Below, piece by piece: positions 7,864 through 60,560 of a stretch of 64,000 nucleotides of DNA. The DNA comes from an uncultured Endomicrobiia bacterium (GTDB taxonomy: Bacteria > Elusimicrobiota > Endomicrobiia > DTEH01). A program made the position numbers and the translations under genes. How positions within the stretch are numbered: the first letter of the stretch is position 1; each line of letters starts with the position of its first letter. The notes beneath the pieces were generated by a model that did not search any database, was not told the origin of the DNA, and saw nothing but the letters and a program-made list of their open reading frames with translations. The stretch covers positions 41,549 to 105,548 of the forward strand of contig CALFVX010000006.1 in assembly GCA_937928765.1 (NCBI GenBank), given 5' to 3'.

Positions 7864-10800
7864 ATGAATAAAAAGATTCTGTGTTTAATAATATTGTTTT
7901 TATCAAATATTATGTTTGCAAAAATTTTAAAAATAAAAGTAATAGATGCAACTAACAATCAACCACTTAGTGATGTTGAAGTTATGGCTGTTGGTTTTAT
8001 TGAAGGTAATGAAGAACCATTATTTCACCTTTGTGATGTTCAAAAAACCGGTGCTTCAGGAGAAGTAGTTTTTAATTCTAATAAACTTGTAGATTTAGAT
8101 CCTGTCAGTGGTTCAGCTGTAGTTTATAAAATAGGTTTTTCAAAAAACAGATATCTACCTACAATAAAACAACAAATTGTTGGAAATTTACTTATAGAAG
8201 TAAAATTTTCTTTTTCAAATAATGAAATAGATTTAACAAATACTCCTTTTGTGATGTTTCCTGCACCACAGAATTTTCAATCAGGCGAGTTAGAATTAGA
8301 TATATTTGGTTCTAATAATCAACCAATAACTTCTTCGTTAATAGGTATACTAGAGTTAAAACATAGCATTACTCAAGAAATAGAAGCATTGAATATATTT
8401 GTTTCAGATGGTAGTAACCCTGTTAATATTCAAAATGTTCCTCCAGCAGAAACAGGGGTTTATAAATTATCAGTTTATGTACCTTCAACAAATGAAGGTG
8501 CAGAAGTAATAGTTTCAACTGCAGTTTATAATGGTAAAAAAACAAAAAATCCTACTCCAATATATCTTGGTTATATAACTAGCACAAGGTCTGATACAAC
8601 ACAGCCATTAAACACACCATCAAATGTTGCATTTGAAGGTATTGTTTTAGATACTTCAAGTAGACCAATTTCAAATTGTTATGTTAAAGTTATAAGTTCG
8701 AACCCTCAGCAATCTTTTATTACTAACACAGATTCTTCAGGAAGATTTTTTGTTCCTTCTTTAGCAGTTATGTCGTCAACTTTCTCTGTTTTAATCTCAA
8801 AATTAGGATATATTGCAAAGTTAGATACAAACAATTATTTAGGATATTATTATGACGGTATAAATCGTGTTGTTTTACCAAAATATTTTCTTGAAGAAGC
8901 AAATGGTGTAGTAAAAGGTAAGATATGGATTAAAAAACCATCAGATCCCACAAATATGAGCAAGGGATTTCCTGATTTAAAGGTTGTTTTGATTCCAGAA
9001 AATTATATGTTGTGGCAAGGACCTTATGTCTCAAAAGATGCAAGCGGATTTTATACTACAGTTTCTGGAGGTAATGGATTGTTTGAAATTAAAGGTGTAT
9101 CTCCAGGACAGTATAATTTGTTAATATTACATCCGCTTTTAGCTAAAAATACATCTTATTGGAAAGGAAGTGGTGAAGCAGATCCTAAACAAATATGGAA
9201 TTATAGCTATGAGTATAATTTAGGAGAAAATCAAAAATTAGAAGTAAGTGGTTCAGGTTATCGTATAGGAGATGATCTAAGAATTGTTATTACTTCTGAT
9301 ACAATGAAATTAAAGGTGTTTAATGTTAATGGTAGTACTGTTGATTTTGATTATTCTTGGAATGATGAAAAAATACATATTTATTTAAATATAGATGTTT
9401 CATCTAACGCTGTTATAAAAGGAAATTTTTATTTCCCAACAACTGTAAGTATACCAGAAGAAGATGCAATAAAAGTTATTGCATATCCATTTAACCCACT
9501 TACAAGAAATTTTCTTGATTGGTCTTCTGAAGGTACAATATTTTTTGCAGACCCAAATGGTCTTTGGGGAGATGGTAATCATAAACCAATTTATATTGAA
9601 GTTTCGACTGGCAGTTATTATGTAGAGGTAAAATCTAGCAAATGGGTGCCAGTAAAAAATTATAACCCTGTAGTTATAGTTTCTACACCTGCTAGTGTGG
9701 TAACTCTTCCAGATATATATCTTACTAAGGGTGGTAGAATTGAAGGTAAAATTAAACTTCCTGATGGTAGTTATTTCCAATCAAGAAAATTTCCTGATGG
9801 TAGTTGGTTGGAAGGAGAGATAGAAATTAGAGGCGTAAATGTTGATTTTAATAAACATTTTAGGATGGATGAATACTTACCAGAGCCTACAAAATTTGAG
9901 TTTGATATTTTACCACCTGGAATGTATAATCTTATAGTGAGAATAAATAAAGGTTTACCACAAGAAAAAAATGTTAAAGAATTTTATCCAGCCTCTGTAG
10001 TATCAAATGTTAGGGTTTATCCTGAGCAGACAACATATGTAGAAGCAGTGGTTAAAGATGGTGTTATGTGTGAAGCTTTATCTCCTATACCACCTGATAA
10101 ACCTGAAGTAGATTATTCAAAAAAAGCAGCAAAAGATCTACCACCTAATTATGGTATTGTAGGTTTTCCAACAGATATTCCGCTTAAAGGACAAACTTTG
10201 CAATATGTAATTAACAATCAGGGAGTTTTAGAAAATGTTCAGATTCCAGTTTTATATTTTGATAAAACAACCAAAACTTGGCCTCCAAAAAAAATTCTTA
10301 CTGGAAAGTATAATTTTTATTTAGTTCTTATAAGATTTTTTGGTACTGAAATTGATAAAAATTCAGGACCAGATGAGTATATTACAGTTTTAAGTAAAGC
10401 AGAAAATGTTGAGATAAAAACAGAAGATCTTATTAAAGAAAGTACTTTTCAAATATATATGGGTGCAGGAGTTATGGGATCAGGCGTTATTACTGGAAGA
10501 ATAAAAGGTAATATGATGTTAACTTTACAAGATAGCCAAAAAATTAGAAATAATTTTAGAGAATTTCTTGAGTATATTCCTACTTTAATGATTTATGATA
10601 TGGATGGCAACTGGCGAGGTTATTCTGCAGCAAGACCTAAACTTGAAGATTTGTCTAAATGGGAGGTTGCTATTAATAACGGTGATGTTCAGATAATAAA
10701 CAATATGATAAATAGTGATGATGAAAATATTGCTTCACATATATATTATTACATAGACAACTTGCCTTTAGGTAAATATGTTGTTGTTTGTGAAACAAAA

Positions 10801-12675
10801 AATTATCCTATAGTGACAAAAGTTGTAGAAATTTCTACAGGTATAACAAAACTAGATATAGATTTTGATAAAGATGCTACTTTAGGGTTAAAGTTAACAG
10901 GTTATATTAAAGATGAAGATGGAAATCCGATACCTAATGCTAATGTTGTTATAACACATAGATTAACTAAAAAGAAAACTACTACAGATCAAGATGGTAA
11001 ATTTGAAATTTTTGGTTTACCTCAAGGAATTATGAAAGTTGATGTTTTAAAAGATGGATATGCAATTGCTGGCGAAAAAATTTCTTTAGGTAGAGAAGAT
11101 AAAGAAGTGAATATAAAACTTAAAAAAGCAGGTGGTAAAATTTTAGGTAAAGTTTATATTCGTGAAAGTAATTGGAGTAGGAAAAATATTTATTCAGGTG
11201 CTAAGATTGTTGCTTATAACGAAACAGAAAATGTTTTAAATCCTGCTAAATATCTTCCTTCTGTGGTGGTTAAATCGCAGGATGACGGTAGATATATTAT
11301 ACCAGATGTTATAGTAGGTAATACTTATTATGTTTATGCTTTTGTTCCAGAAAGGCCTGTATATTATAGATTAGTTTATGTTAGTACAGATACGGTTTCA
11401 AATATAGATTTTGATATAAAACCTTCGACACCAACTTTGAAAGTGACAATGAAAAGAACAGGAAATCCTTATGTTTTCAGGTTTATTATAGAATCTCCAA
11501 GACCTTTAGCAAATGTTCCAGAATGTTATTATTCAGAGGGAAGTTATTTTAATCCTGATAAAAAAATTCGTGCTTTACCCTCCAAAGGTGCTAAAAATAC
11601 ATTTAATCTTGATATTGAAATACCAAGAAATAGTAATGAAGAAAATTACACACTTTATATAAAAGCTCAGTATGGTGTTAAAGAATATATTACAGAAACA
11701 ATTACTTTTAGTCAAAAATCAATGATAGACACTAAAAAAGAAATTTCAGAAGAACTTGCAGAAGGCGGTTCTTTATTAATTGATGACGAACGATCTGATA
11801 ATACAGAAGCGCAGATTGATCCAGGAACTTTTACACCTGAAGAATTTGCTTCTATGCCAATAGGCGGATTTTTATCTTCTTTGCCAACTTTAAAAATGAC
11901 AAAAACATCAAAACAGATAATATCTTCTTTTAAAGGGAAATTAGAAGATATTATTGCAAGTGATACTTATGAAATAAATCTTTCTAAAACACAGGTTAAC
12001 AAATCGTTTTCAATTGCTTTAAGTTATATCAGAGAAAAAGTTTCTGAATCAGAACTTCAGAATTTAAGAATTTACTATTATGACGAAAATGATAAACACA
12101 ACCCATGGAAACCTATTGCAGGGACAGTAACAATTGATCCTCTTACAGCAACAGTGTCAGTAGAAACTGAAACTCTTGAACCAAAAAGTAATACAATTAA
12201 AACAAAAAGTGTTGGGAAATCTGTAATTCGTAATGGTGTTTATGCGTTTAATCCACAAACATCAACAAGTCAAACAGGTATTTTTGCTGTATTTAAAGTA
12301 GATCCATCCTCTGCTGGTGTATATAAAGGTAGCGAATTTAAAATCTATAATTTCCCAAATCCATTTGATTTAAAAGAAAAAAACGTTTATCTTTATGATG
12401 CTGTAGTACAAAATCAAACTACAAAAGGAACTATAATAAAATATTTCTTACCAAAAGGTAAAGATGGTGAATTAAAGTTTTACATTTACAATCTTGCAGG
12501 AGAGCTTGTAAAAATAATAGATGTTGGTGAAAAAACAAGTGGACATTTTTATTATACTGAATGGGACGGAACTAATCAAAAAGGTGAGAAATGTGCATCA
12601 GGAGTATATTTCTTAGTTGCAAAACTTAAAGGTGAGAAATTAAACAAACCATATAAAATAGTAATATTGAAATAA
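7864..12675 (+). CDS. Large exported protein with carboxypeptidase-regulatory-like repeats and C-terminal FlgD-like/T9SS-like domain
   Basis: signal peptide; repeats such as GYIKDEDGNPIPNANVVITHRLTKKKTTTDQDGKFEIFGLPQG; C-terminus YNFPNPF...LKFYIYNLAGELVKIIDVGEKTSGHFYYTEWDGTNQKGEKCASGVYFLVAKLKG. Confidence 0.85.
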   Translation: MNKKILCLIILFLSNIMFAKILKIKVIDATNNQPLSDVEVMAVGFIEGNEEPLFHLCDVQKTGASGEVVFNSNKLVDLDPVSGSAVVYKIGFSKNRYLPTIKQQIVGNLLIEVKFSFSNNEIDLTNTPFVMFPAPQNFQSGELELDIFGSNNQPITSSLIGILELKHSITQEIEALNIFVSDGSNPVNIQNVPPAETGVYKLSVYVPSTNEGAEVIVSTAVYNGKKTKNPTPIYLGYITSTRSDTTQPLNTPSNVAFEGIVLDTSSRPISNCYVKVISSNPQQSFITNTDSSGRFFVPSLAVMSSTFSVLISKLGYIAKLDTNNYLGYYYDGINRVVLPKYFLEEANGVVKGKIWIKKPSDPTNMSKGFPDLKVVLIPENYMLWQGPYVSKDASGFYTTVSGGNGLFEIKGVSPGQYNLLILHPLLAKNTSYWKGSGEADPKQIWNYSYEYNLGENQKLEVSGSGYRIGDDLRIVITSDTMKLKVFNVNGSTVDFDYSWNDEKIHIYLNIDVSSNAVIKGNFYFPTTVSIPEEDAIKVIAYPFNPLTRNFLDWSSEGTIFFADPNGLWGDGNHKPIYIEVSTGSYYVEVKSSKWVPVKNYNPVVIVSTPASVVTLPDIYLTKGGRIEGKIKLPDGSYFQSRKFPDGSWLEGEIEIRGVNVDFNKHFRMDEYLPEPTKFEFDILPPGMYNLIVRINKGLPQEKNVKEFYPASVVSNVRVYPEQTTYVEAVVKDGVMCEALSPIPPDKPEVDYSKKAAKDLPPNYGIVGFPTDIPLKGQTLQYVINNQGVLENVQIPVLYFDKTTKTWPPKKILTGKYNFYLVLIRFFGTEIDKNSGPDEYITVLSKAENVEIKTEDLIKESTFQIYMGAGVMGSGVITGRIKGNMMLTLQDSQKIRNNFREFLEYIPTLMIYDMDGNWRGYSAARPKLEDLSKWEVAINNGDVQIINNMINSDDENIASHIYYYIDNLPLGKYVVVCETKNYPIVTKVVEISTGITKLDIDFDKDATLGLKLTGYIKDEDGNPIPNANVVITHRLTKKKTTTDQDGKFEIFGLPQGIMKVDVLKDGYAIAGEKISLGREDKEVNIKLKKAGGKILGKVYIRESNWSRKNIYSGAKIVAYNETENVLNPAKYLPSVVVKSQDDGRYIIPDVIVGNTYYVYAFVPERPVYYRLVYVSTDTVSNIDFDIKPSTPTLKVTMKRTGNPYVFRFIIESPRPLANVPECYYSEGSYFNPDKKIRALPSKGAKNTFNLDIEIPRNSNEENYTLYIKAQYGVKEYITETITFSQKSMIDTKKEISEELAEGGSLLIDDERSDNTEAQIDPGTFTPEEFASMPIGGFLSSLPTLKMTKTSKQIISSFKGKLEDIIASDTYEINLSKTQVNKSFSIALSYIREKVSESELQNLRIYYYDENDKHNPWKPIAGTVTIDPLTATVSVETETLEPKSNTIKTKSVGKSVIRNGVYAFNPQTSTSQTGIFAVFKVDPSSAGVYKGSEFKIYNFPNPFDLKEKNVYLYDAVVQNQTTKGTIIKYFLPKGKDGELKFYIYNLAGELVKIIDVGEKTSGHFYYTEWDGTNQKGEKCASGVYFLVAKLKGEKLNKPYKIVILK

Positions 12676-12695: not shown

Positions 12696-12740
12696 TTTTA
12701 GTTTTGAAAAATTAAAATAAAAGGAGGTTAAAAAGTTATT

Positions 12741-13682
12741 ATGAAAAAAAATTATTTTATATTTTTGATTTTTACATTTCAATTTTTAGTTTCTAATTTA
12801 TTTTCTGGTGTAGGAACTACTACTGCACAGTTTTTAAAGATTGTTCCTTCAGCAAGAGCTGCTGCTATGGCAGGAAGTTTTGCTGCAATAAGTGATGATG
12901 TTTATTCGATACATTTTAATCCTTCTGGACTTTCAGAATTGCAAAAAACTCAGGTTGCTTTCACATATTTAAAATATTTTGCAGATGTTAATTACGGATT
13001 TCTTGGTTATGCAACACCTAATACAAAATTTGGCAGTATAGGATTTGGATTAACATATTTAATTGTTGATAATATAGAAGCACGCACTGCAATTGAACAA
13101 TCAAGCGGATTTAACGAACCCGAACGATATTTCAACGCTAAAGATCAATCATTTATTTTTTCTTATGCGAAAAGAAATTCATTTCCAAATTTGTTAGAAG
13201 GAGTTAATTTAGGAGGTAATCTACGCTTGATACAATCAGAAATTGATCAGGTTGTTGGTTATACTTTGAGTTTAGATTTAGCTGCAATGTATTCTCCTTT
13301 AGAAAAAATAAAAACAGCACTGGTTATACAAAACATTTCTTTTGGTATGAAATTTAGAGAAGAAACTGATCTTTTACCTTTAGATATTAAATTTGCTTTT
13401 TTGTATAAACCAATTGAAAAACTTAATCTTGTTTGTGATATCGACGAATATATAATTGATACAAAATTTTATGTTTCTTTTGGAGTAGAATATTGGGTTA
13501 TAAAAAATCTTGCTTTAAGAAGTGGCTATAGGTTTGGTTATGACAGCGAATCTTTAGGCAAAATAGCAGGATTTTCTTGTGGTTTAGGATTTTGTATATG
13601 GAATATAAATTTGGACTATGCATTTGTCCCTTTTGGTATATTAGGTGATACACACAGAGTGAGTATTATAATCAAATTGTAA
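12741..13682 (+). CDS. PorV/UPF0164-family outer-membrane protein
   Basis: VGTTTAQFLKIVPSARAAAMAGSFAAISDDVYSIHFNPSGLSEL matches the PorV N-terminal pattern; beta-rich barrel. Confidence 0.85.
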   Translation: MKKNYFIFLIFTFQFLVSNLFSGVGTTTAQFLKIVPSARAAAMAGSFAAISDDVYSIHFNPSGLSELQKTQVAFTYLKYFADVNYGFLGYATPNTKFGSIGFGLTYLIVDNIEARTAIEQSSGFNEPERYFNAKDQSFIFSYAKRNSFPNLLEGVNLGGNLRLIQSEIDQVVGYTLSLDLAAMYSPLEKIKTALVIQNISFGMKFREETDLLPLDIKFAFLYKPIEKLNLVCDIDEYIIDTKFYVSFGVEYWVIKNLALRSGYRFGYDSESLGKIAGFSCGLGFCIWNINLDYAFVPFGILGDTHRVSIIIKL

Positions 13683-46233: not shown

Positions 46234-46283
46234 TGTGATTTTTGTCACTTTATGTTGACATTATAATGAATTATTTATATATA
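46234..46283 (+). promoter_or_regulatory. Promoter with CRP/FNR-like box upstream of FecR gene 2
   Basis: TGTGATTTTTGTCACT at 46234-46249, TTGACA at 46255-46260, 17-bp spacer, TATATA at 46278-46283. Confidence 0.72.
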
Positions 46284-46525
46284 AACAAATCAGTAGAACT
46301 AAATTCAGGTTATGTAAATTTTTTTTTAAAAATTATTCTAGAAAGTGAAAAATTAAGAAAGATAAAATATATTTGAAAGATATGAAGTAGTTATTAATTG
46401 AATTATTAGTTTTATTTTTATTTTTTTCATTAAGAGTAGATTAAGTGATGTTTTATATCGCATATAAAATTTAAATTTTCATAAAGAAAGTTAACAAAAC
46501 TTATTTCAAAAGGAGGTAATAAAAA

Positions 46526-48163
46526 ATGAAAAAGATAATCATCGCATTGAGTATATGTATTTTATCTTTAAGTTTTGTTTTAAAAGCAGAAGAAGTTGTA
46601 GTAGCAAACTATACTGGAAATGTTTTATTTTGGCAAAAAAATCAATGGGTAAATATTGATAAAGGTATGATATTAAAAGAAAAAGATAAGATAAAAACAT
46701 TACAAAAAAGTAAAGTTGTGCTTGTTTTTCCTAACGGAAGTACTATAACTTTAGCAGAAAACACACAGATTACAATAGAACAACTTTTAAACAAGATATC
46801 TGTTTACTTAGAAGAAGGGAAAATAAAAAGTAAAGTTAAAGAGTTGCAAACATCACAAATTTTTGAGGTAAAGACAGCAGTATGTGTTGCATCAGTTCGT
46901 GGTACAGAATTTGTGTTAAGTTATATATATAACCAAGCTGAACTTTTAGTTATAGAGGGTAAAGTTCTATTTAGCGACAATTTTGGTTCCTATTTAGAGG
47001 TTTTACAAAACGAATTTTGTAATTTAACCCAACAAGGAACTTTAAAAGAAAAATCTTTTGCTGGTGAAGATAAAATAAATAGTTTATTGGAAGAATTTAA
47101 AGATGTAGAAGTTGAACAGAAAGATGAAACTGAAAAAGCAAAAAAGGAAGAAAAACAACTGCAACAAAGAAAAAAAGAAGATATTGAAAAAGAAAATATT
47201 GTAAGATTAAAAGAGGAATTACGAAATTTTATAAATGAGACAAGGTTAGAAAAATATTATATTAATGAGATAGTCCAACAAACCAAAGATGCAGACTTTC
47301 AATCAGGAAGAACATTAAGAGATGTTCACGGAAACCTAACCCGTGTAGAACAGGTTGTTTCAAGAAATAAAGATAATACAGTTGAATTTATAAATATTAC
47401 AAAAAGAGATATGTACAAATATAGAGGATATTATAAAGATTATGCTGATGAAGTGAATTCTGAAAAACCACGAGTTGATATTCTTAAAGTAGGAATAGAA
47501 TTTAACCAACCTTTGCCAGAGAAAATTTCTGAATGGCCAAAATATATTACTGAAAAAAATAAAAATGATAGATTAGATTTTTATCCTACAAGAATGTATT
47601 GCGAACTTTCAAATAATTATAAAGATAGTTTACTTCAGGAAGTAAATTTTAATAAAACATTTAAAGATTCAAAAGAGAAACTTGATGGTAAAGTTAATAT
47701 ATATATTTCAAATGGTAACGAAAAATATCAAGTTGATATAGACTATGATGAAGATATAAAAGGTAAATTGCCTGAAAGTAAAAATAAGAGTGAAGATGAT
47801 ACTAAATTATGGGCTTGGGCGTATGGTCCTTTGCCTGTTACAAAAGATATTAATAATGATGGTAAAGTTGATAACAAAGATATTTTATGGATGAAAAATG
47901 AAGCATATCTAATAAACAACAACGGTAATATTTTAACTACTTCATATTTTACTTCTGGTGGTTCTAAAGATCCATTTACTATTCTTAAAGAAATTGCAGT
48001 TGAAAGTATAATATTTGTAAGGAGAAATAATAATAATTCTCCAGCAGATAATTTTTTTAATCGTAATATAGATCTTGTTTTAACAGCAGATATTGTTATA
48101 GCTTTAGTGAAACAAATTGCACCTTCTATGAGTGATATAAAAATAGAAAAAAATAATGATTAA
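46526..48163 (+). CDS. Exported FecR-domain protein (paralog 2) with EF-hand/dockerin-like motif
   Basis: signal peptide; VKTAVCVASVRGTEFVLSY; RDVHGNLTRVEQVVSR aligns with DVFGNRVRIEEYIVRQ of paralog 1; DINNDGKVDNKDILWM. Confidence 0.8.
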   Translation: MKKIIIALSICILSLSFVLKAEEVVVANYTGNVLFWQKNQWVNIDKGMILKEKDKIKTLQKSKVVLVFPNGSTITLAENTQITIEQLLNKISVYLEEGKIKSKVKELQTSQIFEVKTAVCVASVRGTEFVLSYIYNQAELLVIEGKVLFSDNFGSYLEVLQNEFCNLTQQGTLKEKSFAGEDKINSLLEEFKDVEVEQKDETEKAKKEEKQLQQRKKEDIEKENIVRLKEELRNFINETRLEKYYINEIVQQTKDADFQSGRTLRDVHGNLTRVEQVVSRNKDNTVEFINITKRDMYKYRGYYKDYADEVNSEKPRVDILKVGIEFNQPLPEKISEWPKYITEKNKNDRLDFYPTRMYCELSNNYKDSLLQEVNFNKTFKDSKEKLDGKVNIYISNGNEKYQVDIDYDEDIKGKLPESKNKSEDDTKLWAWAYGPLPVTKDINNDGKVDNKDILWMKNEAYLINNNGNILTTSYFTSGGSKDPFTILKEIAVESIIFVRRNNNNSPADNFFNRNIDLVLTADIVIALVKQIAPSMSDIKIEKNND

Positions 48164-48291
48164 ATTTGAGTATTGCTAGAAGAGTATTTCTTCAAACAAA
48201 AATCTTTTCTTATTTTTATTTGATTTATTCATTATAATTTTATATAATAATTGCAAAAAATGTATTTTAGATTTTTTATAAGGAGAAGAAT

Positions 48292-49056
48292 ATGAAAAAA
48301 TTTTTCTTATATATTTTTTTTATATTTTTTGCAGTTTCATTGTATAGCATCTCCTCTTACGCTATTGATTTAACACAAGAAATAATAGATTTAGGTTTAA
48401 ATTTTATAGAAAATCCTGCAGATTTGTTTTTTAATCTACAACAGAATATAGAAGATTGCTCACCAATTCCTGCAGGACAAATTGAAGGGTTAAAAAAGAA
48501 ATATTTTGGTTTAAGAACTAATGTATTTCCAACTTTGTTTCCTACATCTTTAGTAAATATTTCTTTTAAAACAAGATTTAATACTGAAACAAAATATATT
48601 CCTCAGATAGGTTTAATTGGTGGTGTTGGTAGAATTATCGCTTTAAGTTTAATACCGTCAACAAATTCAAATGGAGAAGAAATTCCTAAACCTGAAAATA
48701 ATGTTTATTATTATGGTTTGATTTTTTCTAAAACATTTGAGAATACAATTTTATATTTTGGTACAAAATATTCAGAATTTTTTCTAAAAGTAAAACTTCC
48801 ACAAGAAATAGATTTTTATGGCAGCACATTAAATGAGATAAATTTTATTGTGAATGATACTTTTTTGTTTACGGGTATAATGCTTCCAGTTGATATCAAA
48901 AAAACAATTGTTGCACAGATGTCTTATGGAATAAAATATAAAAAAATTGTAGGACGGTTAGGTGCTGAATATAATCATTTGCAAATAGGTGTTGACATAT
49001 TTCCTGAGGGACTTTTAGTTTTACATCCATATATAGCATACAAATGGCAGTTTTAA
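48292..49056 (+). CDS. Exported probable outer-membrane protein
   Basis: signal peptide, beta-rich, terminal aromatic LHPYIAYKWQF. Confidence 0.55.
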   Translation: MKKFFLYIFFIFFAVSLYSISSYAIDLTQEIIDLGLNFIENPADLFFNLQQNIEDCSPIPAGQIEGLKKKYFGLRTNVFPTLFPTSLVNISFKTRFNTETKYIPQIGLIGGVGRIIALSLIPSTNSNGEEIPKPENNVYYYGLIFSKTFENTILYFGTKYSEFFLKVKLPQEIDFYGSTLNEINFIVNDTFLFTGIMLPVDIKKTIVAQMSYGIKYKKIVGRLGAEYNHLQIGVDIFPEGLLVLHPYIAYKWQF

Positions 49057-49293
49057 AATAAGTTTTTTAAAAGTTATAGCTTTTTAATAATCTTTAAGAA
49101 ATAAGAAAAACTGAAAATTATTTTTATCTTAACTTTATCAAGATGTTATTAAAGGTTCTGTATATAAAAATCTACACTAGCCTTAATTAATAGAATTGAG
49201 GTTTAAAAAGTAAATTAGGTAGTAGTCAGTAAAAGTAGATGGTAGTTATATATAAATAAAAAATTTAATAAAGCTTTTAAAAAGGAGTAAAAT

Positions 49294-50487
49294 ATGAGAA
49301 TTGTAAAGGTTTTATTTTTTTTATTACTTTATTTTTTATTTATAGCTAGGATCTTTGCAGAAAAATGGTTGCCTTATTATTTGTTTGATTTTTCAGAAGG
49401 TATATATTTACCATCTAAAGGTAAATTGGGATTTGCTACTGTGCTTTTAAACGATATAGGTTTTATTTTAAAACCTATTGATGAACATACTGGAATTTTT
49501 TATTATCAGTTAAAATACGAAGGTCCTGGACTTAAACGTCAGGAGGGAGAAAAATTTGAACAAAGAATGATTGGCCACAGTTTAATCTTACAACATAGCT
49601 ATAAATACAAATTTTTTGTTTTTAAAACAAAATTTAATTATGGATATGATTTTTTACGCAGTGGAACAAACGAGCTTTGGGGATTAGGATTGTATGATAA
49701 TGAAAGAATTGGTTTATTAGAAGAAGTTGAGTATAAATTTTTAGAAGATTTTAAATTAAAAGGACAAATAGGATATAATTTTATAAAATTTCCTAATTAT
49801 ACAAGTTTAATTGAAGAATATATTTCAGGTGCCGAAGAAACAACTGCTGGAAAACAAGACAACCATATGTTTTTAGCAAACTTAAAATTAAATTACAAAA
49901 TTAATAATTTTGGTATTTTGTCTATAATTCAAAACTATATAAACCAACAAGTTTTAGACGAAACAGCTACATATTCTAACGAAAAACAGAAAGATTTTTC
50001 TTTAGAAATAAATTACTATATTGAAACTCTAAAATTGACAAAGTTTCTTTCTTTTTCTCCATATACAGCTTTTAAATACAAAGATTCAAATCAAGCATTT
50101 TTGTATTTAATTTCGTATGATATCACAACTTCAACACCACAGGTTGTAAAAGATTATTATGATTATACAAAAATTATATTTTCTTTCCCATTTAATTTTT
50201 ATCTTACAGAAACAAAAATTTTAAGTTTTATTCCAGAATTTGAGATAACATCTTATTTATTTCGCCAACCGAGAGATGAAAATAACAACTTTATAGAAAA
50301 CGAAAAACAAAAAAATTTCTTAGCTTTGTATTCTTTGATTTATACATCACAAAGTTTTGACAAACACAGAAAAGTTTCTTTATTTTATACTTATCAACAA
50401 CAAAGTTCTAACATGAAGTTTGAAAAATATTATCCGTATAACTATTCAGCACATTATTTTGGTATAAAGTTTAGTTATAGTTATTAA
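49294..50487 (+). CDS. Outer-membrane beta-barrel protein (paralog 2)
   Basis: signal peptide; barrel-like; shares FPNYTSLIEEYISGAE and the SSNMKFEKYYPYNYSA-type C-terminus with 6498-7730. Confidence 0.7.
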   Translation: MRIVKVLFFLLLYFLFIARIFAEKWLPYYLFDFSEGIYLPSKGKLGFATVLLNDIGFILKPIDEHTGIFYYQLKYEGPGLKRQEGEKFEQRMIGHSLILQHSYKYKFFVFKTKFNYGYDFLRSGTNELWGLGLYDNERIGLLEEVEYKFLEDFKLKGQIGYNFIKFPNYTSLIEEYISGAEETTAGKQDNHMFLANLKLNYKINNFGILSIIQNYINQQVLDETATYSNEKQKDFSLEINYYIETLKLTKFLSFSPYTAFKYKDSNQAFLYLISYDITTSTPQVVKDYYDYTKIIFSFPFNFYLTETKILSFIPEFEITSYLFRQPRDENNNFIENEKQKNFLALYSLIYTSQSFDKHRKVSLFYTYQQQSSNMKFEKYYPYNYSAHYFGIKFSYSY

Positions 50488-50527
50488 CTATCAAATGTAT
50501 GTTCTATAATATAAATATAATTTATAA

Positions 50528-52141
50528 ATGAAAATTAATAAAATTATTTTATTTTTTATATTTTTTACTTTTTTATCTTCTTCACTTCTTTACTCAGTGG
50601 CACCACATATTTCTGAAAAGTATTATAAAAACAGACCAAAAATAAAACCGAAATCTTTAGTTGATGTTTCTTATCTTAAACTTAAAGCTGCTCCAAGAAT
50701 AGAAATCGCTAAAGCTTTGGGTTCTGTTGGGACAAAAAAAGTTGCTGTGATTTTAGTGGATTTCCAATCTGTTCAATTTACAAATTTAAAAGAAGCAAAT
50801 ACTACTTTTAATAAATTAAAAGAATACTATAAAGAAGTTTCTTATGGCCAACTTCAGCTTGATATAACATTTTTTTATCAAGGCGGTTCTACAAAAACAT
50901 TAACAGGTTTAGAAAGTCCATATAGAATGCCTAATGATATTTCTTATTATTCTAAAAACACAGAGTATTCTCTTTCTCAACTTGTTAAAGATGCTGTTTA
51001 TAAATCTGGAGTTTCTAAATCAAACTATGACTGTGTTATGGTTTTACATGCGGGCTATGGTGCAGAATCTATGAACCCACCTGATGGTCATATATGGTCT
51101 GTTTATGTTAATTGGGATGATGTTGTTGTTAATGGATTTACTGACGGAACTATAGTCCCTGAGAAGGAAAGTAATAATTATTCGCCATTAGGTGTTATAG
51201 CTCATGAGTTTGGACATCAATTGGGATTGCCGGATTTGTACTATCCAGCAGAAGATGGCAGTCAATATAGTATAGTGGGTGTTTGGTGTTTAATGGATTA
51301 TGGATGTTGGTTAGGAAATCCTTATGGTTCACAACCTGCACATTTATCTGCTTGGTGTAAAGATTTTTTAAGTTGGGTTGATTTAGAAATTGTGTCTTCT
51401 ACAAAAAGAAATGTTCAACTTCCTTATGTTGAATTATCTTCTTCTGTAATAAAAGTTGAAATTCTTACTGCCGATAATCCAAAAAAAGAATATTTTTTGT
51501 TAGAATATAGAAGAAAAACACTTTTTGATTCTTCTTTGCCAGGTGAAGGAGTTTTGATATGGAAAATTGATGATAATATTGCTAAAGATCCTTATAGGTT
51601 AATGATGAACAATATAAACTCTGGTAAACCATATTATGGTGTTGACTTAATTGAAGCAGATAGCACTCCTGCTGGTTTAAATTATGACAATTCAGGCGAT
51701 CCGTTTCCTGGTAGCAAGAATATTGTAAAATTTTTGCCTTCAGATTATAATTTAGTTGTTTCTAATGGTGAGATTATACCTATCTATATAACTGAGATTA
51801 GTAATAATTCAACATTTGCAAGTTTTAATATTTTGTGTGAGTTAGAAATAAAAAATCTTGTCCAAGGTGAGGTTAAAATTGGCAATAACTATACATATGC
51901 AGGGAAATTGATGACTTTAGGGTTTAATCTATTAGAACCTTCAGAAATTGAAATCTTAGTTTACAATTTATCAGGCAAAGTGGTGAAAAATTTTGGTAAA
52001 ATGTATTTTACAGCTGGTAAACATACTATCCAGTGGTATGCAGTTGATGATGAAAATAAAAATTTATCTTCTGGTTTGTATTTTTTAGTATTTAAAGGGA
52101 AAAATATTCACAAAGTTGAAAAGTTTATAATAAAAAAATGA
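50528..52141 (+). CDS. M6-family metalloprotease with C-terminal FlgD-like/T9SS-like domain
   Basis: VIAHEFGHQLGLPDLYYPAEDGSQYSIVGVWCLMDYG zinc site; C-terminus EIEILVYNLSGKVVKNFGKMYFTAGKHTIQWYAVDDENKNLSSGLYFLVFKG...VEKFIIKK. Confidence 0.9.
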   Translation: MKINKIILFFIFFTFLSSSLLYSVAPHISEKYYKNRPKIKPKSLVDVSYLKLKAAPRIEIAKALGSVGTKKVAVILVDFQSVQFTNLKEANTTFNKLKEYYKEVSYGQLQLDITFFYQGGSTKTLTGLESPYRMPNDISYYSKNTEYSLSQLVKDAVYKSGVSKSNYDCVMVLHAGYGAESMNPPDGHIWSVYVNWDDVVVNGFTDGTIVPEKESNNYSPLGVIAHEFGHQLGLPDLYYPAEDGSQYSIVGVWCLMDYGCWLGNPYGSQPAHLSAWCKDFLSWVDLEIVSSTKRNVQLPYVELSSSVIKVEILTADNPKKEYFLLEYRRKTLFDSSLPGEGVLIWKIDDNIAKDPYRLMMNNINSGKPYYGVDLIEADSTPAGLNYDNSGDPFPGSKNIVKFLPSDYNLVVSNGEIIPIYITEISNNSTFASFNILCELEIKNLVQGEVKIGNNYTYAGKLMTLGFNLLEPSEIEILVYNLSGKVVKNFGKMYFTAGKHTIQWYAVDDENKNLSSGLYFLVFKGKNIHKVEKFIIKK

Positions 52142-53025
52142 AAAAGTATATATTTTTAACTTTTATATTTTTTAACAAAATTTTACTTTTAGCTAATCAG
52201 ATTGAAATAATTAACCTACCTTTAGCAAAAAGTTTATCTTTAGCATCAGAAACATCTTTGGTAGACAACAGATCTTTTAATGTGTTGACAAATCCTTCAA
52301 TGTTATACAGAATTGATTCTGGTTACAGCTTAGAGTTTAATAAATTATTTTACTATGCAGATTCAGGATATAATTTGTTAGGATTTTCAGTTAAAGAAGG
52401 TGAGGGTAATATAAGCTTTGTTTTTGGCAGATTTTCTTCAGGAGAGTTGAAAGTTTTTGATATAGAAGGTAATCAAACAGTAGAAGTTGCAGAATATTCT
52501 GTTTCTTTGCTGGCAGTTGGATTTTCCTCTAAAATTAATTCATCTAAAAATTATAATTTATATTTAGGTTTAAGTGGTTATGGTATATTTGAAAAAATTA
52601 ATATAGAATCACAATATTGGGGTTCTAACATAGGTTTGGTTTATGAAAGAGTATTTAATAGTAAAATTTTTAATTCTTTTTGTGTTGGTGGTGTGATAAA
52701 AGGTTTAGGTATGAATAATAATTTGATGCATAACGAAGCAATTTATTTTGATATTAAAAGAATAAAAGTTATATTTGGTTATCAAAATTATTATCCTGAA
52801 AAAGTTGAAGATAATTATAAGTTGGGTATATCTGCAACGATTTATAAATCAAAAAATAACAACTATAATATAATATTAGATTTAGGTTATAATTTTGGAG
52901 TTTATAATGAAAGTATTAGTTGTGGATTTGAAATAAGAATAAAGAATATTTTAATTAATTATTCTTTTGTAAATCATAGTTATCTTACTAGTTTACATAA
53001 TATTTTTTTAAGCTTTAAGTTATAA
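52138..53025 (+). CDS. PorV/PorQ-like outer-membrane protein (divergent)
   Basis: ATGA overlap with M6 protease; PLAKSLSLASETSLVDNRSFNVLTNPSML resembles the PorV start pattern; beta-rich. Confidence 0.6.
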   Translation: MKKYIFLTFIFFNKILLLANQIEIINLPLAKSLSLASETSLVDNRSFNVLTNPSMLYRIDSGYSLEFNKLFYYADSGYNLLGFSVKEGEGNISFVFGRFSSGELKVFDIEGNQTVEVAEYSVSLLAVGFSSKINSSKNYNLYLGLSGYGIFEKINIESQYWGSNIGLVYERVFNSKIFNSFCVGGVIKGLGMNNNLMHNEAIYFDIKRIKVIFGYQNYYPEKVEDNYKLGISATIYKSKNNNYNIILDLGYNFGVYNESISCGFEIRIKNILINYSFVNHSYLTSLHNIFLSFKL

Positions 53026-53031
53026 TTTTTC

Positions 53032-54117
53032 TTAAACATATCTCACATATAAAAACACTCCAATAATAAAAAATAAAATGTTTGGTATCCAAACAGAAAT
53101 TATCGGATTTATAATATTTAATTCTCCTAATGTTCTTAAAAAAGATAATAAAACCCAGTAAATAATCAATGCTAAAATAGTATATATAAAACTTGTAAAC
53201 TTTCCATATTGCGAATATATATTTTGTCCTAAAGATAAAGATAATAAAATTAAGATAAAATTTAAAAAAGCAATAGAATATCTAAAACTTATCTCAGATA
53301 AAATTCTTGCTGAATTTTGTCCTCTTAGTTTTAAAGTTTTTAAAATATTTTTTAATTCTTTTAAGTTTAAAAAATCTAGCTGTAGTGAAGAATAGTCATA
53401 CTGAAATTCTTCAATACCTATTAATAGAGGATATTCATATCTCAAAACCGATTTTTCTTTTAAAAATTTGTTATCTTTAAATTCTCGGATTATACAGTTT
53501 TCTAAAATTAAAATTTTTTCATATTTTTTAGCATATGGTGAGATAATTTGTTTGTTTAAATTATTTTGGTTGTCATATTTTTCTATAATTATATTTTTTG
53601 CTTCAAAAGATTTGTTGTTATATTCTTTTATAAAAACAAAACAACTGTTTATGTCGTCATAGTAAAATAGATCTTTTAAATCTTCTATTTGTGAAGGTTG
53701 GTTTTTAATTTTTTCATTAAAAATTTTTTGTGAAATTAAAAATCCTTTTGTAGCTAATTTATCGTTTATTAAAAATGCTGAAATACTTATTAAAAGACCA
53801 ACAATTAACCATGAAATAAAAAATTTTTTTAAGTTTACACCTAATGTTTGGATAGATATAAGTTCTTTAGTGTACATAAAATTATTAATTGTAATCAATG
53901 ATGATAACATTACTGTAATAGGTAGTGTTTGCACAAACCATAATGGTATAAGTGTTGATAAATAATATAATATAATTCTCAAGTGAGGTTTAAAATGTAA
54001 AAAATCTGGTAGTCGCCAAAAAAATTCTGATGATGCAAAGATTAAAATTAAAAATAACGAGATTGGAAAAAATAATTTTAAAAATTCAGTTAATAAATAT
54101 TTTTGTAGTGTTTTCAT
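53032..54117 (-). CDS. LptF/LptG-family (YjgP/YjgQ) LPS export permease
   Basis: six-TM topology, TKELISIQTLGVNLKKFF motif. Confidence 0.85.
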   Translation of the reverse strand: MKTLQKYLLTEFLKLFFPISLFLILIFASSEFFWRLPDFLHFKPHLRIILYYLSTLIPLWFVQTLPITVMLSSLITINNFMYTKELISIQTLGVNLKKFFISWLIVGLLISISAFLINDKLATKGFLISQKIFNEKIKNQPSQIEDLKDLFYYDDINSCFVFIKEYNNKSFEAKNIIIEKYDNQNNLNKQIISPYAKKYEKILILENCIIREFKDNKFLKEKSVLRYEYPLLIGIEEFQYDYSSLQLDFLNLKELKNILKTLKLRGQNSARILSEISFRYSIAFLNFILILLSLSLGQNIYSQYGKFTSFIYTILALIIYWVLLSFLRTLGELNIINPIISVWIPNILFFIIGVFLYVRYV

Positions 54118-54127
54118 AAAAAATCGA

Positions 54128-55228
54128 TTAGTTGTTTGAAAAAATGTTTAGTATGAAATAAACAGCAAATAGTGTGATATTAGGTATTTGTAAAATTAAA
54201 AATGTTAAAATAAAAGAAACAGTAATTTTTATATTTTCTATTACTGATAAACTTGTAGATAACAAAAAATAATATATAATTATAATTAAGATAGAGTAAA
54301 CAAAACTTAACGGTTTTGCACTTTTTTTGATTTTCAATGATAAAACTATACTTAAAAGTGTAAAAACAACTATACTTATAGATATTGAATATCTTAGGAA
54401 ATATTCAGAAAGTATTCTTATTTTATAGCTGTCATTTTTAGAATAGTTGTATTCATTTATTAACTCTTTGTTAGTCATTTCACGAAATGTTTTTGTTTCA
54501 TTGAAAAATTTTGTTATTTTTGAGTTGTGGATTATAAATATATATTTTTCAAATATTATATGGATCAAATCTTTAAAGTTGTTTGTATTAATAGTTGTAA
54601 TTTTACCATTGTATAGTTCAAATATTATATTATCATTTATATCATTTGAAACTTTTGCAGATTTTGCAAAAATTGTCTGTATTAAATTTTCTTCTTTTAA
54701 AAAAGTTTCAATAAAAACATTTTGTAATTCATTGTTTTTGGCTGATTTTATAAAAATTTTTTTGTTGTCTAATTTAAGTAGTGAATTGTCTGAAAATTTC
54801 ATATACGGTTTTGATAAAATAAAATTAAAATACAAAGATTTAAAACTTTTATAACTTTTAGGTATTAAGTCAGTATTAAAATAAAATAAAAGAAAAGAAA
54901 ACATAAGTGATAAAAATATAACATTTTTAGTATAAAAAAATTTTTTTAATCCCATAGTTTGTATTACTGTAAGTTCTTTTGATTCGTTTAATGTAGAAAA
55001 TGTCAACAAAGTAGAAACAAGAAATGTTGTAGGTAATGCAAGCGGAATAATACTAGGAAATAAAAATAGAAATAATTTTATTACTACAAATATATTAGGT
55101 TTGCGTGTGAGGATTGGATTAATAATCTGATATATATAATTTAAATAAAACAAGGTTGACACAAGACAAAAATAAATAAAAAAATTTGATAAAAAATTTT
55201 TTAATATGTATCTGTTGATTGTTTTCAC
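54128..55228 (-). CDS. LptF/LptG-family (YjgP/YjgQ) LPS export permease
   Basis: PLALPTTFLVSTLLTFSTLNESKELTVIQTMGLKKFF; tandem with the other permease. Confidence 0.87.
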   Translation of the reverse strand: MKTINRYILKNFLSNFFIYFCLVSTLFYLNYIYQIINPILTRKPNIFVVIKLFLFLFPSIIPLALPTTFLVSTLLTFSTLNESKELTVIQTMGLKKFFYTKNVIFLSLMFSFLLFYFNTDLIPKSYKSFKSLYFNFILSKPYMKFSDNSLLKLDNKKIFIKSAKNNELQNVFIETFLKEENLIQTIFAKSAKVSNDINDNIIFELYNGKITTINTNNFKDLIHIIFEKYIFIIHNSKITKFFNETKTFREMTNKELINEYNYSKNDSYKIRILSEYFLRYSISISIVVFTLLSIVLSLKIKKSAKPLSFVYSILIIIIYYFLLSTSLSVIENIKITVSFILTFLILQIPNITLFAVYFILNIFSNN

Positions 55229-55325
55229 AAAATAAAATTTCTTATAAAATGTAGAAAATTTTTTATATTTTATATAATTATACTAAATAGTTTAAAAAAT
55301 AACAATAAATTTTTGAAAAAATAAT

Positions 55326-58300
55326 GTGAACAAGAAAAAATTTTTTATTTTTCTATTAACTATTATTCATATAAATATCTTTGGTAATTTTGTTTATTCT
55401 CAGCAAGAAAAATTTGATGAAAATGATTATATAATTTCAAAAAGTAGCGATACTTTTGATAAACAAAAATTTTTTAGGTTTGATCAAAAAAAATGGAATA
55501 AAATAAGGAATCGTATTGAACAAAACTTACCTTTATATGAAGAAAAAGTTTCTACAACTACTATTCCACCTGTATTAACTCCTACAACTATAGAATTTAT
55601 TGAAGGAACACAACTTACAATCAGTGGTAGGAAGCTTATTGGAATACAAGTTAAATCTGTAAAGTATCCTGAGAAAAAAGAATATGACAGAACTGATATT
55701 AGTATGAATCAGGAATTACAAGTAGCGATACGTGGTAAAGTTGGCAACAATGTTGATGTTAACATAGATATTGATGATACCCAACCTGATAAAAGAGATA
55801 TTTTAATTTTATATCGTGGAGAAGGAGTAGAAGCGCAACCCGGTGCTGTAGGATATAAAGCTAAACCTGGTGCTTTTATACAAGAAGCAGCTTTTGGTGA
55901 TATACAGCTAAGTTTACCCAATACAGAATTTGTAGGTTATTCAAGACAGGTTTTTGGACTAAAAGTTACAGCACAGTATAACCAAGCAAGGTTGTATCTT
56001 ATAGCTTCTCAGTCAAAAGGTAATTTTGAGACAAAAAGGTTCACAGGTAAAACAGAGTTTGAACGAAAAATTTTATTTGATACTTCTTATAAAAGAAGAA
56101 AGTACTATGATCTTTCATTTAATGGGAAATATAAACCTAAAAGAGATACTGTTGAAGTTTATTTAGATACATTAGATCCATCTAGAGACCCATTTACTTT
56201 AAAAACACTTACTGGTGTTGGTTTTAATGTTTCTACTTTTACTTATACTGGGAAATTTGAAAAATTAGCATTAGGTAGAGATTATACAGTAGATTATGCT
56301 AAAGGAATTATTACTTTTAATATACCTAATAAAATTATTCAACCAAATTGGGTAATTGTTGTAAACTATGTTGATTATCAGACAGATTCAACTTTGAGTA
56401 GTTTGTTAGGAACAACAAATTATATTATTTTGAAAGATAAAGATGAAACAGAAACAATTAACTGGGAATTAAAAAATAGATATGAAATTGGTAGAACAAA
56501 TATAGTAAGAGATGATTCTACAGGAAATTTTTTATTAAAAATTACAGACAAAAGTAATCGTATATTAGATCCTGCAGTTGATAAAATTCAACCTGGAGAT
56601 AAACCAGTTCCTGTGTATCAATCAGTTAATGCAGCAGATATAATAGTAGATTTTGAAAATGGCGAATTTTATTTTCTTTCTTTGAAACCTTTTGCTGAAG
56701 ATTGTTATTACAAAACATCAATAAGTAGATACAACATTCTTGTTGAATACAGATATAGGTCTAAAACATATTTCTTAAAACCGTTTATAGTTCCATATTC
56801 AGAACAGGTTACAATTAATGGAAAACTAAAACAGAGAAATGTTGATTATTGGATTGATTATGATTCTGGTTTTATTACATTTTTAAAAGAAGAAGAAATT
56901 ACAGAAACTTCTATAATTGAGGCAAGTTATGAATATAGTATGTTAGGATTGCAAGCTGGCGAAACGATAGCTGGAGCAAGGTTAGAACTTCCTTTAGCAA
57001 GTAAGTTGTTTGTTGGAAGCAGTTGGATTGGTAGCATACCTTCAAAAGGAGGGAATGTTCCTGATGTAAGATCAACTCCAAGTTCTCTAAATGTATGGGA
57101 GGCGGATACTAGATTAGTTGATTTCAAAATACCACTTTTACCGTTTAAGATAAATTCTTTCTCAGCAGAATATGCTGAAAGTGAAAAAAATCCTAATATT
57201 TGGGATAAAGCAATTATTGAAAATATGGAAGGGATTACTTTAGAAGATAACATTTCAACTTACAAACACATGTGGTATTACTCTTCATGTAGTGATATTT
57301 ATATTCCTGGAACATATGATGTTGGTTCTGACAAAATTATAGGCGGTGAACTTAATTGGGAAAATGAAGATTTAAAATCTACAGATATAAATCCTAACAA
57401 AACAACAACAGTTGATAAACAGCAGGTTTTAAAGATTAATTACAATTTATATCATTCTTCTGAAGTTGCAATGGTGTATCAATTCTCAAAGATAGGTTTA
57501 GATTTCACAAAAAAACTTTATATTGAAGCAGAGATTTACAGCGATGCTAAAGGTGGACAGTTATATTTAGATTTAGGTCAATTAAGTGAAGATATCGATC
57601 AAGATGGTATATTAGATACAGAAGATAAGAATAAAAATGGTGTATTAGATTTAGATGAAGATACAGGTTTTGAGTATAATTTAGGAAATAGCAAATATTA
57701 TATAAATACCGGCAATGGTAAGTTAGATACTGAAGATTTAGATGGTGATAATGCTTTAAACACTGTAGATAAGTTAGCAGGAAGTTATAAACTAGCAGAT
57801 TTAGATTTTAATGGTTGGATTTCGACTCGTGTTGTTGTGGAAGTTTCAAATAAAATACTATGGAGTTCTGTAAAACATTTAAGGTTAAGAATTAAAGGAC
57901 ATAAAAAATCTGGTGTTATAAAGATTGCAAAAATCTCTGTTGTAGGCAATAAATTTGAAGTATTAACATCTACTACTACGAAAATCTATGCTGTTAATAA
58001 TGAAAATGATAAAGAATATCAGAAACTCTCAGAATTAAAAGATTATTCTTCTATTTATGGAACACAATTTGAAGAAAAAAATTTTGAACAATCATTAGCG
58101 ATAGAATATAATTTTAATGCAACCAACTCTTCTTCTGTGGTAAGTTTGTTGTATAGCAGAGCAATAAATTTTACATATCATCACAAACTTAATTTCTTTT
58201 TATTTAACAAAACAGCAAATGATGTTGTGTTTAAATTTCGTGCTTATACTGATAACAATAACTATTTTGAATATTCTACAACTACTTTAAAACTGCCATT

Positions 58301-60560
58301 GAATAAATGGGTTAAGTTTACTATTGATCAGGTTGATTTAAATTATGATAATATTCCAGATGAATGGGATATTAAAGATGATAATAATTCCTCAGGTTTA
58401 TGTAAACGGATAGGAAATGCAAATTTGCAAGCAATAACTAAGATTGAGATAATTATAGAAAATACATCCTCTTTACCACAAAAAGGAATAATTTATGTTA
58501 ATGATATCTATCTTTCAGATAGTTGGAAACGAAAAGGTATTGCAAGAAAGTTAGAACTAAATATGTCAATTCCTGGCTGGATAAATTTTGGTGGTAAAAC
58601 AAGAAGCGTAGACAGAAATTTTGAAACATTTAGTTCTGCTATAACAAATCAGGATAACATTACAAACGCTGGATATTTAGATTTTGTGAAACTAAAATTT
58701 GTTCCGATGAATTTTCAAGGAAAACAAGAACAGACAATAACTCCTTCTGCTATAGAATCCGGAGATTTAGTTTCTACTATTGAGGAAGGCAAGAAAATAT
58801 ATACTGAAGGAAGTTTTAATACAACTATTAATATTTCAAAATTACCTAGGTTAGGTTTTAATTATACAAAATCTTTAAGTTCAACTACTGCATTAGCAAG
58901 GACTGATATGAAGGATGGTTATTGGACAACTTTAAGTTATACAAATCCTGTTTCAAAGTACATACCATTAGAAAGCATTTCTGTTAAATATGGAGAAGAA
59001 AAATTTTTACTTTATCCATGGAAGATTAATTTTTCTACATATACTATTAATTCTAATGTAGATAACACAAGAAATATTAGTGTTAATTTTCCGTTTAATT
59101 TTTGGAATTTGCTTAATTTAAATCTTTCTTTAGGGACAGCACATACTTTTACTGAATTAAGAATTTTTAACAAGAAAATAGATGAAGATTTAATAGTTCC
59201 ACAACTTTCTAATAACGATCTTTGGGATTATTATAATAAATTAACTTTTTTTTCTTTTTATAATTTACAAAAAACATATGAAATTTATTATACCTCCTAC
59301 TCTGTAGTGATAAGTTCTTATGAGAAGCGTACAGAATGGAATACAGATTTAAATTCTACAATTAACATACTAACATTTTTTAAACCTAATTTAGGTTATA
59401 AAATTAATGTAGTCGAAGATTATAATTATTCTGCGTCTACACGAACTAAAGATGTTTTACGTAATGCAACAGGTTCTTTAGGAGTAAGTTTTATGCCTAA
59501 GGATGTGCTAAATATAAAACATATACAAAGTTTAAGATTGTATTATAATTTTTCTCTTACTGCTGCAGATAAATATGAAAAATTACCAAAAGATTTTCCA
59601 ATGATAGATTTTTATAATATGAGAAATTTAAATTTGTTATGGTATAAAACAGATATAGCAACAATTACAGTTTTTAGAACAAAATTTTTTGAACGAAAAG
59701 AACAGAAATTGCAAAGTGGTTGGAAGTTTTTTGAAGGTATCCCTTTTAAAGGGCCGGTTTTTTTCCTTAGTAAAACAGATTTGAATTTATCCTACTCTGA
59801 TGCTATAGAAGAAAAAGAAGAAACACAGACAAAAACTTATACTTACACAAAAGTATGGCCTGATTTTACATTGTCATTTTATGATATAGAAAATATTGCA
59901 GAATATATTGTTAAAAAACAAAGTGTTGTAAAAGATACAAAACTTGATATAAATTATACTTATAGAACTACCGAGGTAAAAAAAATAAGTTTTGAAAGAA
60001 CTATAAGACATAAAGAGATGTTAAGCTTTAGTTTGTTTAAAGAATACCAGATTTTGTCAAGTTATGAAAATATTTTTTCTGATGTATATAGTCACATTTT
60101 AGATCTTATTACTTCTAAATCGTATACTGATATTATAGGTTTGCAAGTAGGATTGCCATTTTTTGGTCAAAGGTTAACACCAAGATATGAATATAGAAAA
60201 GACTATGCTGAAGATTCTCGCAAATTGCCAACAAAAGATCTTACAACACATACTTTTGCTGTTTCATATTATGCAGATATTGTTCCACAACAAGGAATAA
60301 ATTTTTTTGGTAAATTATTACCTTTAAAAAATAGATTAAGGATAAATTCTACTCTACAATATGTTAGAAAAGAAAGTCCTATTGATATAAATAAAACAAA
60401 TACAGACAAAATTTCGATTTCATCAAAACTAGATTATGATATATCAAGATATATAAATATTTCTTTATCCTTAGGTGGTGATGCAAATGTCAACCGTGTG
60501 GTCAAAACAGAGACAAATTATAGTTATTTTTTAGGAGCAGAGGTTATAATAAGATTCTAA
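55326..60560 (+). CDS. SprA-like giant outer-membrane (type IX secretion translocon-like) protein
   Basis: signal peptide; LTISGRKLIGIQVKS...QELQVAIRGKVGNNVDVNIDIDDTQPDKRDILILYRGE...QEAAFGDIQLSLPNTEFVGYSRQVFGLKV; very long beta-rich protein ending FLGAEVIIRF; GTG start. Confidence 0.85.
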   Translation: MNKKKFFIFLLTIIHINIFGNFVYSQQEKFDENDYIISKSSDTFDKQKFFRFDQKKWNKIRNRIEQNLPLYEEKVSTTTIPPVLTPTTIEFIEGTQLTISGRKLIGIQVKSVKYPEKKEYDRTDISMNQELQVAIRGKVGNNVDVNIDIDDTQPDKRDILILYRGEGVEAQPGAVGYKAKPGAFIQEAAFGDIQLSLPNTEFVGYSRQVFGLKVTAQYNQARLYLIASQSKGNFETKRFTGKTEFERKILFDTSYKRRKYYDLSFNGKYKPKRDTVEVYLDTLDPSRDPFTLKTLTGVGFNVSTFTYTGKFEKLALGRDYTVDYAKGIITFNIPNKIIQPNWVIVVNYVDYQTDSTLSSLLGTTNYIILKDKDETETINWELKNRYEIGRTNIVRDDSTGNFLLKITDKSNRILDPAVDKIQPGDKPVPVYQSVNAADIIVDFENGEFYFLSLKPFAEDCYYKTSISRYNILVEYRYRSKTYFLKPFIVPYSEQVTINGKLKQRNVDYWIDYDSGFITFLKEEEITETSIIEASYEYSMLGLQAGETIAGARLELPLASKLFVGSSWIGSIPSKGGNVPDVRSTPSSLNVWEADTRLVDFKIPLLPFKINSFSAEYAESEKNPNIWDKAIIENMEGITLEDNISTYKHMWYYSSCSDIYIPGTYDVGSDKIIGGELNWENEDLKSTDINPNKTTTVDKQQVLKINYNLYHSSEVAMVYQFSKIGLDFTKKLYIEAEIYSDAKGGQLYLDLGQLSEDIDQDGILDTEDKNKNGVLDLDEDTGFEYNLGNSKYYINTGNGKLDTEDLDGDNALNTVDKLAGSYKLADLDFNGWISTRVVVEVSNKILWSSVKHLRLRIKGHKKSGVIKIAKISVVGNKFEVLTSTTTKIYAVNNENDKEYQKLSELKDYSSIYGTQFEEKNFEQSLAIEYNFNATNSSSVVSLLYSRAINFTYHHKLNFFLFNKTANDVVFKFRAYTDNNNYFEYSTTTLKLPLNKWVKFTIDQVDLNYDNIPDEWDIKDDNNSSGLCKRIGNANLQAITKIEIIIENTSSLPQKGIIYVNDIYLSDSWKRKGIARKLELNMSIPGWINFGGKTRSVDRNFETFSSAITNQDNITNAGYLDFVKLKFVPMNFQGKQEQTITPSAIESGDLVSTIEEGKKIYTEGSFNTTINISKLPRLGFNYTKSLSSTTALARTDMKDGYWTTLSYTNPVSKYIPLESISVKYGEEKFLLYPWKINFSTYTINSNVDNTRNISVNFPFNFWNLLNLNLSLGTAHTFTELRIFNKKIDEDLIVPQLSNNDLWDYYNKLTFFSFYNLQKTYEIYYTSYSVVISSYEKRTEWNTDLNSTINILTFFKPNLGYKINVVEDYNYSASTRTKDVLRNATGSLGVSFMPKDVLNIKHIQSLRLYYNFSLTAADKYEKLPKDFPMIDFYNMRNLNLLWYKTDIATITVFRTKFFERKEQKLQSGWKFFEGIPFKGPVFFLSKTDLNLSYSDAIEEKEETQTKTYTYTKVWPDFTLSFYDIENIAEYIVKKQSVVKDTKLDINYTYRTTEVKKISFERTIRHKEMLSFSLFKEYQILSSYENIFSDVYSHILDLITSKSYTDIIGLQVGLPFFGQRLTPRYEYRKDYAEDSRKLPTKDLTTHTFAVSYYADIVPQQGINFFGKLLPLKNRLRINSTLQYVRKESPIDINKTNTDKISISSKLDYDISRYINISLSLGGDANVNRVVKTETNYSYFLGAEVIIRF

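Follow-up and report, generated by a model that had tools for sequence, protein, structure and literature searches.

A probable type-IX-like outer-membrane secretion and surface-display system with dedicated shuttles in Elusimicrobiota

The 64,000-nucleotide stretch of contig CALFVX010000006.1 analysed here (the window) belongs to an uncultured Endomicrobiia bacterium whose genome comprises 1.54 Mb in 47 contigs and whose named relatives are metagenome-assembled genomes of Endomicrobia and Elusimicrobia. The window encodes a homologue of the SprA translocon and two exported proteins with C-terminal sorting domains (tails), each followed by the gene of a PorV-type shuttle barrel. Together with their counterparts elsewhere in Elusimicrobiota, these parts probably make up a type-IX-like system with dedicated shuttles that secretes proteins across the outer membrane and displays them on the cell surface. 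Its genes are organised as pairs of cargo and shuttle, with the translocon encoded separately. All open reading frames (ORFs) named in a preliminary description of this DNA were found again at their positions when the window sequence was re-read.

That description had called the 1744-residue product of the ORF starting at 55326 SprA-like, and both profile and structure comparisons bear this out. The protein shows, by eye, a signal peptide at its start and ends in ...AEVIIRF. It matched the NCBIfam SprA family TIGR04189 with an E-value (E) of 1.1e-18 and 66 bits, although the equivalog cut-off of this family is 200 bits, and all of its aligned relatives (16/16) matched the same family. When a profile of 16 Endomicrobiia homologues (A1) was run against the PDB, the Flavobacterium johnsoniae SprA (6h3j/6h3i) was the sole match, at E 1e-26 and in four collinear blocks; a phmmer search of the PDB with the single sequence gave chance hits only. 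Pfam SprA_N (PF14349) had no match anywhere in the host genome, and neither the protein nor its relatives matched the LptD family. An AlphaFold model of residues 95-1240, built from 66 sequences (predicted local distance difference test, pLDDT, 84.7; predicted template modelling score, pTM, 0.58), had four SprA structures as its top structural hits (E 8e-52 to 4e-39), with template modelling (TM) scores of up to 0.52 when normalised to the query, and the next hit was a phage baseplate protein at E 2e-7. By profile and predicted fold, the 1744-residue protein is a SprA homologue.

Two PorV-like proteins, each directly downstream of a large exported protein, had also been proposed. The product of 12741 matched the PorV/PorQ family well over its cut-off (Table 1). 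The product of 52138 had no family match in Pfam and NCBIfam searches; when eight clear PorV members were combined into a profile that left this protein out, the profile still found it at E 1.2e-7, and its AlphaFold model (pLDDT 80.1), whose input alignment included PorV-like rows, had PorV as its best PDB hits, namely the F chains of 8gl6 (TM 0.69) and 6h3i (TM 0.66). The held-out profile and the fold are the two lines that point to 52138 as a putative PorV-type member. The PorV found at the corresponding position of locus L071 aligns with 12741, and the orthologue of 52138 in a related genus (L024:6309-7670) carries a CsgG-like C-terminal extension. As had been read from a shared C-terminal pattern, the C-termini of both upstream proteins are type-IX-like sorting domains that score over the family cut-offs. 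The domain of the M6 metalloprotease, whose HEFGH motif is intact, lies at about residues 458-537, and the stop of the protease gene (52141) shares 4 bases with the start of 52138, an overlap that had been described correctly.

The pairing of cargo with a shuttle of its own, suggested initially by these two cases, extends over the host genome and the class. In the host genome, Por_Secre_tail and the PorV family each have 12 matches. When stretches were read and local profiles added, 13 tail-bearing proteins were counted, and for 11 of them the next gene on the same strand is PorV- or PorP-like (binomial probability ~1e-20, assuming ~1,400 genes). The cargo includes an M6 protease, a GH2-type glycosidase, PLD-like, sortilin/BNR and fn3/Kelch proteins, along with small proteins that hold barely more than a signal peptide and a tail. 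One tail exceeds the cut-off of the Type B family (TIGR04131), and on contig C18 the shuttle that follows a 1901-residue protein matches PorP/SprF at E 2e-10, below the family cut-off, and has a LysM-like stretch at its end. Among the class-wide matches listed, a PorV gene lies within 400 bp downstream of at least 30 tail genes and upstream of one, and no tail gene has it on the opposite strand. Loci picked by their best tail match alone had a PorV gene next in 8 cases out of 8 (L126-L133). Many relatives carry 10-40 PorV genes per genome, paired with cargo. The shuttles of several pairs are fused to OmpA, LysM, TPR or HHH modules, and two such arrangements recur across families, a tail mini-protein with a PorV-OmpA gene (L138, L161, L162, L164) and a tail mini-protein with a PorV-TPR gene (L137, L159, L168).

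At L138 (contig C17:24058-29777 of genome G000), the tail protein and the PorV-OmpA fusion adjoin genes that look by eye TonB/TolA-, CpoB- and Pal-like, a possible hint at energy supply or wall anchoring. The same genome holds, outside the window (contig C1:74403-132467; L149-L151, L142), an unbroken ORF of 19,354 codons (~2 MDa); its start resembles a signal peptide, and a type-IX-like tail closes it. Giant ORFs of relatives are likewise tail-ended, for example a 7312-codon frame in G039 that is followed by a tail mini-protein and a PorV-TPR gene.

Of 249 Elusimicrobiota genomes, 215 have SprA, as do 170 of the 178 good-quality ones. Tails (TIGR04183, E<=1e-4) were present in 156 of the 249, that is, in 150 of the 215 genomes with SprA versus 6 of the 34 without it (Fisher 1e-8; both tables read by hand). 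A recurring gene order in the phylum runs from a tail-bearing M6 protease, often flanked by PorV on one side or both, through LptG and LptF, encoded on the other strand, to SprA. Directly upstream of SprA, five Endomicrobiellum-type loci have a tail-PorV pair in the place of LptFG, and in many other loci LptFG is the sole conserved neighbour. The neighbouring genes had been described as lipopolysaccharide (LPS)-export genes; their identity as LptF and LptG holds (PF03739), and they are a conserved neighbour whose part in the system would be hypothetical. Downstream of SprA a ComF-like gene is conserved, followed by apparent gapA and pgk genes (read from N-termini), all of which look like ordinary neighbours. 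The SprA gene is split or interrupted in several genomes (G034, G126, G171, G216), two of which have an in-frame stop, as would be expected from endosymbiont decay or assembly faults.

Like the type IX secretion system (T9SS) of Bacteroidota, the Elusimicrobiota set includes a SprA fold, PorV-family barrels, Type-A-like tails, one Type-B-like tail and a PorP-like barrel; unlike it, the set occurs outside the Fibrobacterota-Chlorobiota-Bacteroidota (FCB) phyla, and GldL, GldM, GldN and the PorU catalytic region went undetected in 41 genomes. The PorV of F. johnsoniae is seated at the side opening of SprA and receives Type A cargo (PMC10994853); this one PorV serves all Type A cargo, while Type B cargo relies on a PorP/SprF shuttle of its own, whose gene commonly lies immediately downstream (PMC12618676). 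The Elusimicrobiota arrangement resembles that Type B system in placing the gene of a private shuttle just downstream of each cargo gene, but it mostly joins Type-A/FlgD-like tails to PorV-family barrels, and the 10-40 cargo-paired PorV genes of many relatives contrast with the single PorV of F. johnsoniae. In Porphyromonas gingivalis, cargo is held by PorP, which PorE (TPR and OmpA-type) ties to peptidoglycan (PMC9143113). As in this PorE-PorP-PG1035 assembly, the shuttle barrel is linked to a peptidoglycan-binding OmpA-type domain and to TPRs in Elusimicrobiota, where, by contrast, shuttle and modules are joined in a single polypeptide (PorV-OmpA, PorV-TPR, PorP-like-LysM).

The preliminary description had noted that the window has no GldKLMN-type motor and suggested a variant system, a suggestion strengthened by the wider search. 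Profiles for GldM, GldL and GldN, run without a T9SS-bearing genome as positive control, gave nothing credible in 41 genomes, and within profile sensitivity the PorU catalytic region was not found in the same genomes, tail-rich ones included. Matches of the GldL profile were discarded as noise, the same signal appearing in unrelated control genomes, and matches of the PorU profile that first resembled a sortase all fall, among those listed, in positions 863-1095, PorU's own tail region. The PorU sortase that characterises a canonical T9SS was thus not found, and because of this and of the undetected motor we do not assign the system to the canonical T9SS, although its parts and layout are type-IX-like and, judging from the present evidence, it would operate in the same manner; some Bacteroidota are also without PorU (PMC7323717). 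Absence of the motor is possible but unproven, because no positive-control genome was included and SprA itself is remote. We put forward tentatively a more specific version, in which SprA-based secretion operates without a GldLM-type motor or sortase and nearly every cargo has its own anchoring PorV/PorP-type shuttle, some of them fused to peptidoglycan-binding modules; it would represent either a simpler and older stage of type IX secretion or a branch with a separate mechanism.

The same negatives bear on a complete, ordinary T9SS whose GldKLMN motor and ring exist but have diverged beyond the reach of the profiles, a somewhat doubtful though by no means negligible explanation. The Bacteroidota profile gives SprA only 66 of 200 bits, and shorter parts could therefore escape, and the motor negatives were obtained without a T9SS-bearing control; yet no GldM, GldL or GldN match was credible in the 41 genomes, tail-rich genomes gave no match to the PorU catalytic region, and no GldKLMN-like cluster adjoins SprA.

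Several points weigh against the type-IX-like reading. Besides the SprA score below the equivalog cut-off and the negatives for motor and sortase, the secretion of these proteins is something we infer from homology, fold and gene pairing, and tails exist in the 6 SprA-negative genomes. As the SprA-negative genomes are mostly small Endomicrobiaceae, the joint loss of SprA and tails in endosymbionts is confounded by genome reduction, incompleteness and shared ancestry. Furthermore, gut Elusimicrobium-type genomes (genus g37) have SprA in nearly all cases and no tail at E<=1e-4, so that either their tails are few and divergent or SprA has another role there. Such lineages with SprA and few detectable tails, the tails in SprA-negative genomes, and the location of most tail-PorV pairs away from SprA would suit an explanation in which the tails are Ig-like surface domains and the barrels ordinary porins, unlinked to SprA and paired through some other shared role. 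This is improbable, since SprA and tails co-occur, the tail-bearing M6 protease with its PorV is a conserved neighbour of SprA, and the same three parts make one complex in Bacteroidota (PMC10994853). Because LptF and LptG adjoin SprA phylum-wide and LptD is reported missing from all Endomicrobiaceae (PMC11257099), with no match of PF04453 in the host genome, we also considered that the SprA homologue might be a lipid/LPS exporter, replacing LptD and partnered with LptF/LptG, and no protein translocon, which is very unlikely given that SprA-bearing genomes hold LptD-like ORFs of ~700 residues (one confirmed by an LptD model, E 9e-17), that a tail-PorV pair replaces LptFG beside SprA in five loci, and that tails co-occur with SprA.

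In the type-IX-like mechanism that we favour, cargo would be exported across the inner membrane by Sec, as the signal peptides suggest. Its C-terminal sorting domain would then be recognised and the cargo would pass through the SprA-family pore, a transport step predicted from the observed homology and fold. Exit would take place by the side opening of the pore, where the cargo may bind a barrel of PorV or PorP type, the product of the gene that follows its own, as the observed pairing implies. Because no PorU-type catalytic region was detected that could cut the tail, the shuttle probably remains as the surface anchor of the cargo; in Sphingobacteriia without a sortase, cargo has been suggested to remain bound to PorV (PMC7323717). 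The OmpA and LysM fusions would give the cargo a hold on the cell wall, in the manner of PorE with PorP in P. gingivalis. Most cargo would have a private shuttle that stays with it, and several shuttles a wall-binding module of their own. The energy source would be one yet to be recognised or a very divergent one, because the GldLM motor was not detected.

Within the window, two modules (4899-13682 and 46526-53025) repeat the same order, a FecR protein, an exported protein without assigned family, the tail-bearing cargo and the PorV-type shuttle (Table 1). They are paralogous in their FecR proteins (E 2e-26) and in their exported no-family proteins (E 9e-19), and the true start of the 4899 ORF is probably a few codons further downstream. 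The word regulon, used in the preliminary description, is unsupported because no co-regulation was shown, counts from a promoter and terminator scan being equal to those from shuffles. At the right edge, a DNA-methylase-like ORF (62272-62961) and an HNH-like ORF (63368-63991), both on the minus strand and read by eye, are possibly part of a restriction-modification locus.

Table 1. Position and supporting evidence of the features in the window
Feature	Coordinates	Strand	Evidence
Exported FecR/LipL45-like protein, first in module 1	4899..6419	+	NCBIfam; paralogue of 46526
Exported protein, no family assigned, module 1	6498..7730	+	Paralogue of 49294
Exported 1603-residue protein, carboxypeptidase-regulatory-like domains and FlgD-like C-terminal sorting domain	7864..12675	+	PF13620; FlgD_ig 30.5 bits (cut-off 27)
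PorV/PorQ-family shuttle barrel	12741..13682	+	NF033709 165.9 bits (cut-off 90)
Exported FecR-domain protein, first in module 2	46526..48163	+	PF04773 61.5 bits
Exported protein, no family match, module 2	48292..49056	+	Orthologues in the same place in L023, L024, L052
Exported protein, no family assigned, module 2	49294..50487	+	Paralogue of 6498
M6 metalloprotease, putative cargo with C-terminal sorting domain	50528..52141	+	TIGR03296 154 bits; TIGR04183 26.7 bits (cut-off 23)
Putative divergent PorV-type shuttle barrel	52138..53025	+	Held-out PorV profile; best PDB hits of model are PorV
LptG-type permease, conserved neighbour	53032..54117	-	PF03739 200.8 bits; synteny
LptF-type permease, conserved neighbour	54128..55228	-	PF03739 174.8 bits; synteny
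SprA-family outer-membrane translocon homologue, 1744 residues	55326..60560	+	TIGR04189; PDB profile match; fold match

Reviews hold type IX secretion to be specific to Bacteroidota, or to the FCB phyla at most, and a 2024 paper that allowed the T9SS in FCB phyla stated that no other phylum has its genes (PMC11285876). Our literature search, whose reach did not extend to subscription papers and preprints, found no paper describing a T9SS in Elusimicrobiota. The presence of a SprA homologue in 170 of the 178 good-quality genomes of Elusimicrobiota alters this distribution and supplies outgroups for the question of which parts are ancestral. With a version that has no detectable GldLM motor, the powering of SprA transport becomes testable by comparison, and the dedicated pairs offer dozens of natural cases from which the recognition of tails can be learned. 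Finally, the fusions of shuttles to OmpA and LysM modules suggest a direct route for anchoring secreted proteins to the cell wall.
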